Below, piece after piece: positions 15,998 through 19,519 of a stretch of DNA of 43,829 bases (its first letter is position 1; each line of letters starts with the position of its first letter). Made by a program: the position numbers and the translations under genes. The notes under the pieces were generated by a model. That model saw nothing but the letters and a program-made list of their open reading frames with translations, made no database searches and was not told the DNA's origin. The DNA comes from Longimicrobium sp. (lineage in GTDB: Bacteria > Gemmatimonadota > Gemmatimonadetes > Longimicrobiales > Longimicrobiaceae), in assembly GCF_035474595.1 (NCBI RefSeq), contig NZ_DATIND010000110.1, positions 1 through 43,829 of the forward strand, in the 5' to 3' direction.

Positions 15998-16672
15998 CTA
16001 CCGGCCCGGCGGACGGGATGGCGGCGTGCCGCGAAGCTGCCGGAGCGCCTGCTCGGCGTGCGCCGCGGCCGTGGTCCCCGCGTGGCGGACGCGCATCCGC
16101 TCCAACTCGCTCGCGGCGCGCGCGGGATCGTCCAGCGCGCCCATGTACAGGTCGATGAGCCGGTTCGTGGCCGTGTAGTCCTGCGCCGGCGAGACGCCGC
16201 GAATCTCCCGCACGTGCAGGTACAGCCGCTCGGCCTTCGCGGCGTCGCCCGCCTCGCGCGCGTACACGTCCGCCGCGAACAGGCAGAGCGCCGCGTCGTG
16301 GGGCCGGTTCGCCAGGCGCGCCTCGATCTCCGCCAGCGCCGTCTCGACATCGCCGCGCGCGATCAGCGCCTTCTCGCGCGAGTAGTCGTCCGCCGACGGC
16401 GTGCTGGATCCCGACGGCGCCACGAAGCTGGCCGCGCCGCGCGCCGCCGAGTCCGCGGTCCACAGGATGGCCAGCGGCAGCAGGAACAGCGTCCCCCCGA
16501 ACGCCAGCAGCGCGCCCAGGATGGCCACCAGCGTCCCGTACCCGCGCAGCGCCGATCCCGCGAACCCGCCCGCCACGACCGCCACCGCGAACGACGTCGT
16601 GAACGCCCGGATGTTGCGCGGATTGTCGAAGTCGAACAGCTGCGCGAAATGGATCTTGATGTTGATCTTCAT
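15998..16672 (-). CDS. Two-helix membrane protein with TPR-like tail
   Basis: The 224-residue product starts MKINIKIHFAQLFDFDNPRN, followed by two predicted helices (about 25-45 and 50-72). A linker rich in Ser/Ala/Asp leads to a helical region of about 120 residues: YSREKALIARGDVETALAEI, NRPHDAALCLFAADVYAREA, AERLYLHVREIRG. The helix pairs with Ala/Leu/Tyr spacing resemble tetratricopeptide repeats. The start at 16672 fits the promoter at 16713-16741; the frame is open to 16858. Probable scaffold; no specific function assigned. Confidence 0.7.
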   Translation of the reverse strand: MKINIKIHFAQLFDFDNPRNIRAFTTSFAVAVVAGGFAGSALRGYGTLVAILGALLAFGGTLFLLPLAILWTADSAARGAASFVAPSGSSTPSADDYSREKALIARGDVETALAEIEARLANRPHDAALCLFAADVYAREAGDAAKAERLYLHVREIRGVSPAQDYTATNRLIDLYMGALDDPARAASELERMRVRHAGTTAAAHAEQALRQLRGTPPSRPPGR

Positions 16673-16741: not shown

Positions 16742-16772
16742 CTGCTTACGTCGTTGGTGGATGCACACGCCA

Positions 16773-16802
16773 AGGCCCGTCGCCTGAGCGGCAGCCGGGC
16801 CT
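16773..16802 (-). terminator. Hairpin downstream of the Cys-rich peptide gene
   Basis: AGGCCCG (16773-16779, plus strand) and CGGGCCT (16796-16802) form perfect 7-base arms about 29 bases past the peptide's stop. It separates that gene from the next minus-strand promoter at 16713-16741. Confidence 0.4.
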
Positions 16803-16830
16803 CTGTAATCCACGGAGAAGCTACTCCAGA

Positions 16831-17049
16831 TCAGCAGTCCTCCGTCACCTCGCCGCACATCTCCGGTTCCGAGCAGTCGAAGGTGTCGCAGTCGGGAGCG
16901 GCGGTTTCGCAGTCGGGCGGACCGCTCTCGGTGTCGCAGTCCGCGTCGTCGGTGTCGGCGGCGAGGCGGAACGGCTGGATGCCGCGAAGAGGAGCGGTGG
17001 TGAACGTCTCCACCTCGAGCATGTCCGGGTTCAGCGTGAGCATCCGCAT
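16831..17049 (-). CDS. Cys-rich RiPP precursor-like peptide with pinensin-type leader
   Basis: The 72-residue product starts at the ATG at 17049, with GAAAGGCGG about nine bases upstream. The N-terminus MRMLTLNPDMLEVETFTT matches the leader pattern LxLxxDxLxVExFxT found in pinensin-family lanthipeptide precursors and related peptides of Bacteroidota and Gemmatimonadota. The C-terminal half is acidic and carries six Cys (38, 47, 54, 59, 65, 72), five of them preceded by Asp (ADC, PDC, PDC, FDC, EDC), with Thr/Ser between them; the last residue is Cys. No dehydratase, cyclase or protease gene is in the window, so modification in trans would be needed. Glycosyltransferase genes lie immediately upstream. 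I infer a RiPP precursor; a metal-binding or disulfide peptide is the alternative. Confidence 0.7.
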   Translation of the reverse strand: MRMLTLNPDMLEVETFTTAPLRGIQPFRLAADTDDADCDTESGPPDCETAAPDCDTFDCSEPEMCGEVTEDC

Positions 17050-17093
17050 GGGATTGACCGCCTTTCGGTAAGATGATCGGCCTGCGCTACATT

Positions 17094-17147
17094 GAAGTCC
17101 GCGAAGGCGGACTGCGTGCCGTTGTAGCCGCCACTTCAGTGGCATTT
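17094..17147. repeat. ~55 bp repeat, copy 1 (inverted partner at 19464)
   Basis: The copy runs from GAAGTCCGCGAAGGCGGACT to GCCACTTCAGTGGCATTTTT. It holds two small hairpins, AGTCCGCgaagGCGGACT and GCCACTtcAGTGGC. The reverse complement lies at 19464-19519 with very few differences. On the minus strand this copy lies just past the glycosyltransferase stop at 17257 and upstream of the Cys-rich peptide. Confidence 0.85.
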
Positions 17148-17256: not shown

Positions 17257-18330
17257 CTACGCCGCCACCGCCTGCGTGACGTACGCCTCCAGCTCCTCCG
17301 CGCGGTGCTCGGCCGTGTGCGCGGCCAGGATGCGGGCGCGGGCGGCGGCGCCGATGGCGCGGCGATCGTCGGCGTGCGTGGCGCGCAGGATCTCGACGAC
17401 TTCCTCCGTCGACTCCGGGAGCAGGATCTCGGTGCCGGGGGTGAAGAAGTGGTCCAGGCCGTCCCACCGGTCGCTGATCATGGCCGCGCCGCACGCCGCC
17501 GCCTCGAACAGCCGCACGCTGGGCGACCAGCCCGCCGCCACCATGTCGGCCCGCGTGGCGTTCAGCTGCCAGGCCGCGCTGCTGTAGAACGTGGGATGCC
17601 GCTGCGGCGGGAGATGGTGGATGTGGCGCACGTTTCCCGGCCAGAGCGTCTCCGCCGGATACTGCGGCCCGGCCACGATGAAGCGCTTCCCCGGCATCCG
17701 CCCGGCGACGTCCAGCAGGAATCTTTCTACTACCGGCTGCCGGTCCGCCGCGTAGGTGCCCATGTACGCCAGCTCGCAGGCCAGATCGAGATCGGGCGCC
17801 GTGGGATGGTAGCGCTCCCCATCCACCGAGCAGTACAGCGGCACCGCCTCGCGCGCGCCCAGCTCGCCCTCCACCACCTCGCACAGGAACGGGCCGCCGG
17901 TGAACGACAGGTAGCGGGTGAAGAGCGGCACCTGGTCGGTGCGCAGGTACTCCGCGCCGCCGCCGCGCAGCGCGGCCACGGTCACCGGCGTGTCGATGTC
18001 GTAGAAGAACAGCGGGTCCACGCCGGCCCCGGCCAGGTCGTCGATCACCCGCGGGCCGCCGTTCACGTAGCTCCCCACGATGGTCGCGTCCGCCTCACGC
18101 GCCTCGGCCAGGGCCTCGGCGCGGACGTCCTCCCACTCGTTCCACAGCTTCAGGGTAACGTAGCCCGGCGCGGGGTGGTCGCGGTTGTCGGCGTACCAGG
18201 GCGCGTTCCACTCGTAGAACACCACGTCGTGGCCGCGCGCCGCGAAGGCGCGGAGGAGGGCGCGATACGTCGTCGCGTGCCCGTTCCCCCAGCTGGACGA
18301 GATGGAGAGGCCGAAGACGACCAGCTTCAT
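17257..18330 (-). CDS. CgeB-type glycosyltransferase (1)
   Basis: The 357-residue product starts MKLVVFGLSISSSWGNGHAT, then TYRALLRAFAARGHDVVFYE, an N-terminal domain of the CgeB/DUF3880 kind. The C-terminal GT-B half carries WSPSVRLFEAAACGAAMISD and DHFFTPGTEILLPES, the sugar-nucleotide-binding region of Glyco_trans_1_2 proteins. It is expected to be a cytoplasmic sugar transferase; donor and acceptor are unknown. CgeB in Bacillus acts in spore-coat glycosylation. Its ATG overlaps the stop of the paralogous gene upstream (ATGA), so the two are coupled. The next gene downstream is the Cys-rich peptide. Confidence 0.85.
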   Translation of the reverse strand: MKLVVFGLSISSSWGNGHATTYRALLRAFAARGHDVVFYEWNAPWYADNRDHPAPGYVTLKLWNEWEDVRAEALAEAREADATIVGSYVNGGPRVIDDLAGAGVDPLFFYDIDTPVTVAALRGGGAEYLRTDQVPLFTRYLSFTGGPFLCEVVEGELGAREAVPLYCSVDGERYHPTAPDLDLACELAYMGTYAADRQPVVERFLLDVAGRMPGKRFIVAGPQYPAETLWPGNVRHIHHLPPQRHPTFYSSAAWQLNATRADMVAAGWSPSVRLFEAAACGAAMISDRWDGLDHFFTPGTEILLPESTEEVVEILRATHADDRRAIGAAARARILAAHTAEHRAEELEAYVTQAVAA

Positions 18331-19463: not shown

Positions 19464-19519
19464 AAAATGCCACTGAAGTGGCGGCTACAACGGCACGCAG
19501 TCCGCGTTCGCGGACTTCC
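19464..19519. repeat. ~55 bp repeat, copy 2 (inverted relative to 17094)
   Basis: AAAATGCCACTGAAGTGGCG through CAGTCCGCGTTCGCGGACTTCC is the reverse complement of the copy at 17094-17147, differing at only a few bases. The two copies enclose exactly the two CgeB-type glycosyltransferase genes. Confidence 0.85.

Follow-up and report, generated by a model that had tools for sequence, protein, structure and literature searches.

Prochlorosins are the textbook example of a single enzyme acting on dozens of precursors dispersed through a genome, a system whose purpose is unknown and whose chemistry is class II. Genomes encoding prochlorosins or synechococsins are reported to contain 29 to 83 precursors each (PMC10783134), and the LanC enzymes of the pinensin family have been described as LanM-like (PMC7268733). 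For Longimicrobium terrae only unspecified lanthipeptide clusters have been reported (PMC7291104), and in the open-access literature we found no description of a dispersed class I family, subscription journals and raw database annotation being outside the scope of that search. Here we analyse a short open reading frame in a 43,829-nucleotide contig of Longimicrobium sp. (NZ_DATIND010000110.1, hereafter the window) and propose that it probably encodes a trans-acting class I lanthipeptide precursor (LanA), one of a genome-wide and hugely amplified family with a pinensin-type leader. This reading builds on direct observations, namely the leader family itself, its tendency to occur and to cluster with split LanB/LanC, intact motifs in LanC, and the statistics of Ser/Thr placement before Cys in the cores; expression, modification and biological role of the window peptide are not shown.

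The initial annotation placed a Cys-rich RiPP precursor with a pinensin-type leader at 16831–17049, and these coordinates are correct. The frame lies on the minus strand, from an ATG at 17049 to a TGA at 16831–16833, and its translation is a 72-residue peptide, MRMLTLNPDMLEVETFTTAPLRGIQPFRLAADTDDADCDTESGPPDCETAAPDCDTFDCSEPEMCGEVTEDC. Alignment of leaders assigns residues 1–18 (MRMLTLNPDMLEVETFTT; 16996–17049, minus strand) to the leader, the presumed LanB/LanC recognition segment, and Cys spacing analysis assigns residues 21–72 (16834–16989, minus strand) to a linker and acidic core. Translation confirms six core Cys residues as originally described, five of them in Asp-Cys pairs, with Cys as the last residue. 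The gene is intergenic and has a minus-strand gene on either side, one without a Pfam match (15998–16672) and one encoding a glycosyltransferase (17257–18330). A Shine-Dalgarno-like sequence, AAAGGCGGT (17057–17065, minus strand), stands 7 nt from the ATG. Past the stop codon, folding yields a G+C-rich hairpin (16771–16805, minus strand; z = −2.75 for 16750–16830) that may be a 3′ end structure; a terminator scan did not call this hairpin and, because a T tract is absent, it is not a canonical intrinsic terminator. The window also carries two copies, at 17095–17143 (plus strand) and 19469–19517 (minus strand), of a dispersed intergenic repeat of about 49 bp (AAGTCCGCGAAGGCGGACT nn GTGCCGTTGTAGCCGCCACTTCAGTGGC) present 39 times in 944 kb of the genome. 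We rejected this repeat as a family promoter or mobilising element, as it lies within 250 bp upstream of only 1 of 115 family genes versus 20 of 706 others.

Alone, the window peptide has no match in Pfam or NCBIfam. Searching the genome with it returned weak matches that proved to be complete leader-bearing peptides, some in arrays, and 21 leaders found in this way were used to build a profile. Their alignment has the consensus MKKLxLxxDxLxVESFxT...RGTV, in which L6, L11, V13 and F16 are invariant and E14 and T18 are at least 90% conserved. To avoid circularity, the window peptide was left out of a rebuilt profile, which was then run over the six reading frames of 944 kb of the genome. The window peptide scores 27.0 bits against this leave-one-out profile, versus 5.3 bits for the second-best frame in the window, and the 944-kb score distribution is gapped between background, which stays under about 9 bits, and family members, which exceed about 12 bits. 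The leader assignment of the initial annotation is thus upheld by a profile built without the peptide itself. The window peptide does not match the pinensin leader model NF038180, the curated cut-off of which is passed by 19 paralogs in the same genome; its link to that model is therefore transitive, and we do not file it as a strict NF038180 member.

The family is very large. With the profile that includes the window peptide, a search of the 6.57-Mb genome, in which the best 150 of 402 candidates were scored, gave at least 150 matches (E = 1.5e-15 to 5.9e-6), and the window peptide ranks 40 among the 150 matches listed. The regions that we fetched (about 0.94 Mb) contain 115 members, 97 of which were already among those 150, giving a family of at least 168 genes (150 plus 18 more) and an estimate of about 178 (150 × 115/97). 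The count is a lower bound, and the assembly comprises 163 contigs at 97% completeness and 4% contamination. All 115 members have Cys in the core, and the cores are diverse and Cys-rich. Members are spread over many contigs, mostly in small arrays (a second member lies within 1.5 kb for 98 of 115), and nearly all are away from LanB/LanC genes. Arrays on contigs C70, C97, C80, C3, C28 and C109 were considered as sites of adjoining modifying enzymes; on reading of the gene calls rather than by family searches, only unrelated-looking genes stand beside them. All family genes seem to be served by a single distant modifying-enzyme set.

The window contig itself (C110) encodes neither a LanC (PF05147) nor a LanB C-terminal domain (PF14028), as the initial annotation had reported for dehydratase and cyclase genes, and both domains are present elsewhere in the genome. 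PF14028 occurs once, on contig C23, where an S8 protease, an HlyD protein, an ABC exporter, six leader-family peptides, a 683-residue LanC, a LanB C-terminal protein and a LanB N-terminal protein are encoded in that order. The last of these is incomplete because the contig end cuts its gene; a related genome encodes a complete homolog (G008 C103). LanB is split, with PF14028 and PF04738 on separate proteins, and this is the only split-LanB/LanC/ABC/HlyD/S8 cluster in the genome. The earlier description of the window gene as an orphan whose enzymes, if any, act from elsewhere stands but is too narrow: the gene is an orphan only locally, because at least 168 genes share its leader and a matching split LanB/LanC is present on C23. 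The genome has other lanthipeptide-type synthetases, on C25, C136 and C87, which counts against C23 as the partner. Those on C136 and C87 are less likely candidates because the adjacent short peptides have different leaders. The latter two synthetases have LanC domains (L037 297–4231 on C136 and L038 5190–8714 on C87), and the short peptides near them show other leader types (EEHPIVQLTEEELRVVIGG... and DPMETVLSLQ...).

The C23 LanC is closest to LanM-type cyclase domains. Residues H228, C313, C360 and H361 are invariant in eight homologs, and from knowledge of NisC we take them to be the zinc ligands and catalytic His. The LanC proteins of split-LanB clusters share a conserved C-terminal extension of about 245 residues, and this fusion to a conserved C-terminal domain is seen at L035 13085–13825 (C23) and in seven homologs. 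An AlphaFold model of the domain (mean pLDDT 83) resembles in fold TglI, as found in the TglHI complex (E = 3e-6), and to a lesser degree leader-binding RREs such as TbiB1 and PqqD; its sequence similarity to PqqD is under the Pfam cut-off. We know of no described LanC–RRE fusion. Family leaders start with KLxLD or a similar sequence, and the compiled recognition sequences of lanthipeptide RREs include LxLD-type motifs (PMC12710340). An RRE-like fold on LanC together with an LxLD-type leader motif therefore makes it plausible, as an inference from the predicted structure, that a LanC-borne recognition element could let a single cluster serve distant precursors.

Leader peptides and split LanB travel together among relatives. 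Homologues with a conserved leader are numerous, in the genome itself and in its congeners, answering the objection raised with the initial annotation that none might exist. Of ten congeneric genomes, seven encode leader peptides (at least 150, at least 150, 149, 82, 19, 11 and 1), and the same seven have a LanB C-terminal domain; the other three have neither (P = 0.008). Family size in these congeners (G000–G009) runs from 0 to at least 150 in step with split LanB, a swing that is the gain or loss of an entire dispersed gene family. Across 249 genomes of the phylum, with the best 32 candidates per genome scored, the leader occurs in seven, all of which have a LanB C-terminal domain versus 14 of 249 overall (Fisher P = 3e-10); these co-occurrence P values ignore shared ancestry. 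In each of the seven leader genomes at least one LanB C-terminal domain lies in a short stand-alone frame. Full-length LanB was rejected as the partner, since genomes of this sample having only the full-length form had no leader family. The C23-type gene set flanks leader peptides in four genomes (G008, G009, G014 and G015) and a shorter form does so in three (G006, G190 and G192); copies in G001, G002 and G007 are on short contigs and were left out of this comparison. More distant LanC homologs with a nearby leader-family peptide occur in Ignavibacteriales, Melioribacter, Elizabethkingia and Chryseobacterium. At two further loci (L130, about 13242, minus strand; L133, 4825–5185), leader-family peptides adjoin split LanB and have near-pure Cys/Ser/Gly/Asn repeat cores that read SCTSCSGCSGC... 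and CSNCSDCSNC....

Because the family was picked by leader alone, the cores provide an independent test of the chemistry. Ser plus Thr equal or exceed Cys in 115 of 115 cores, versus a mean of 94.7 and a maximum of 107 under a binomial null and a mean of 103.8 and a maximum of 111 under a permuted null (5,000 draws each). In 98 of the 115 cores a separate upstream Ser/Thr is available for every Cys (shuffle mean 40, maximum 59), and downstream matching is complete in only 18. The same asymmetry is seen in 32 non-redundant cores (<40% identity), 27 of which are fully matched upstream (shuffle maximum 23) and 6 downstream. Class I lanthionine formation would favour Ser/Thr placed before Cys, an arrangement that neither free thiols nor disulfides require. 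Family-wide, Ser/Thr are over-represented exactly one and five residues before Cys (z of about 15 and 14), a preference suggesting that the enzyme imposes a fixed ring size.

The window core has 7 Ser/Thr and 6 Cys, and every Cys can be paired upstream. Ser/Thr stand at exactly −5 to four of the six Cys (shuffle P = 0.0014) and at −3 to the other two, so that all six are served at −5 or −3 (P = 7e-5, the −3 spacing having been noticed post hoc). Six non-overlapping rings can be inferred as possible: T33-C38, S42-C47, T49-C54, T56-C59, S60-C65 and T69-C72. In other respects this member is odd. No other core among the 115 sampled is as acidic (31% Asp/Glu versus a median of 9%; net charge −14, the next most acidic being −9), and none has as many acid-Cys neighbours. 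The residue at −1 to Cys is Asp or Met, where the family prefers Ser/Thr, and the peptide lacks a Gly-Thr-Val-type motif that 99 of 115 members carry close to the border between leader and core. We found no ortholog of the window peptide in congeners or in 84,980 species genomes; the core therefore looks lineage-specific, and for the same reason purifying selection on the frame cannot be shown.

These oddities admit a reading in which the gene is a genuine member by descent that is decayed or diverging, its core drifted and the Gly-Thr-Val motif lost, and is now neither produced nor modified. The gene is solitary and without a detected ortholog, and the absence of both the motif and Ser/Thr at −1 to Cys would fit such decay. 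We nevertheless regard it as unlikely: the frame is intact and the ribosome-binding site good, and random drift would hardly retain six Cys each with Ser/Thr at or near the family-preferred spacing. Still less probable, in our judgement, is that the leader addresses another modifying system or that the core is a metal-binding, metallothionein-like peptide with free or disulfide-bonded Cys. Several RiPP classes have LanB-like leaders in common, and Asp-Cys repeats with strong acidity could suit metal binding, but across the family Ser/Thr never fall below Cys and lie upstream at preferred spacings, which thiol chemistry does not need, and in genome comparisons the leader goes with split LanB. 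A chance frame in G+C-rich intergenic DNA, the composition of which yields many open frames and which would fit the absence of any annotation match for the peptide alone, is contradicted by a leave-one-out score of 27 bits where background in 944 kb reaches no more than about 9 bits, and also by the Shine-Dalgarno-like site and the intergenic position with minus-strand genes on both sides, and we reject it.

For a functional class I precursor, the family and its core grammar allow a mechanism to be inferred. Recognition domains in the remote C23 enzymes would bind the leader (LxLxxDxLxVExF); such domains are expected in LanB, and one is predicted here as an RRE-like domain at the LanC C terminus. 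By inference from the family, split LanB would dehydrate Ser/Thr of the core, and core grammar suggests that zinc-dependent LanC would then link every Cys to the Ser/Thr that precedes it by five (or three) residues. The predicted product is a very acidic peptide in which as many as six small thioether rings follow one another without overlap; the C23 ABC/HlyD exporter and S8 protease may export and trim it. Extending this to the whole family, we lean, without firm conviction, towards the view that one class I (split LanB/LanC-RRE) machine serves about 170–180 dispersed precursors in Longimicrobium-like bacteria, the largest single-genome natural lanthipeptide substrate library that we found reported, and that the window product is a highly acidic six-ring string with five rings closed beside Asp. 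If true, this would point to more than one origin of natural combinatorial lanthipeptide biosynthesis, and a family that some congeners carry (at least 150 genes) and others lack would offer a second comparison for the purpose of such libraries. Peptide engineering would also gain a tolerant LanB/LanC pair, with the RRE-like domain fused to LanC as a concrete, testable reason for substrate tolerance.

The window gene and its family share features with several known systems. Like the pinensins of Chitinophaga (NF038180), they have the same leader type, a split LanB, a LanM-like LanC and Cys-rich cores past the leader. They differ in the acidic Asp-Cys core of the window peptide, which the initial annotation had rightly found unlike known pinensins, in the distance of the window gene from the enzymes, in the at least 168 precursors per genome and in the RRE-like C-terminal domain on LanC. 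That domain matches the fold of TglI and, less strongly, those of TbiB1 and PqqD, all RRE-bearing RiPP partner proteins, but is fused to a lanthionine cyclase. Like prochlorosins and synechococsins (ProcM and SyncM), the family seems to pair one promiscuous enzyme set with many precursors having a conserved leader and a hypervariable core, and as with prochlorosins its solitary genes and arrays are scattered over the genome. Precursor number here is about twice that of prochlorosin genomes, and whereas prochlorosins use class II LanM, Nif11 leaders and a Gly-Gly cleavage site, this family has class I split LanB/LanC and a pinensin-type leader. We conclude that the window precursor joins a prochlorosin-like lifestyle to a pinensin-like leader and enzymes with class I split-LanB chemistry.
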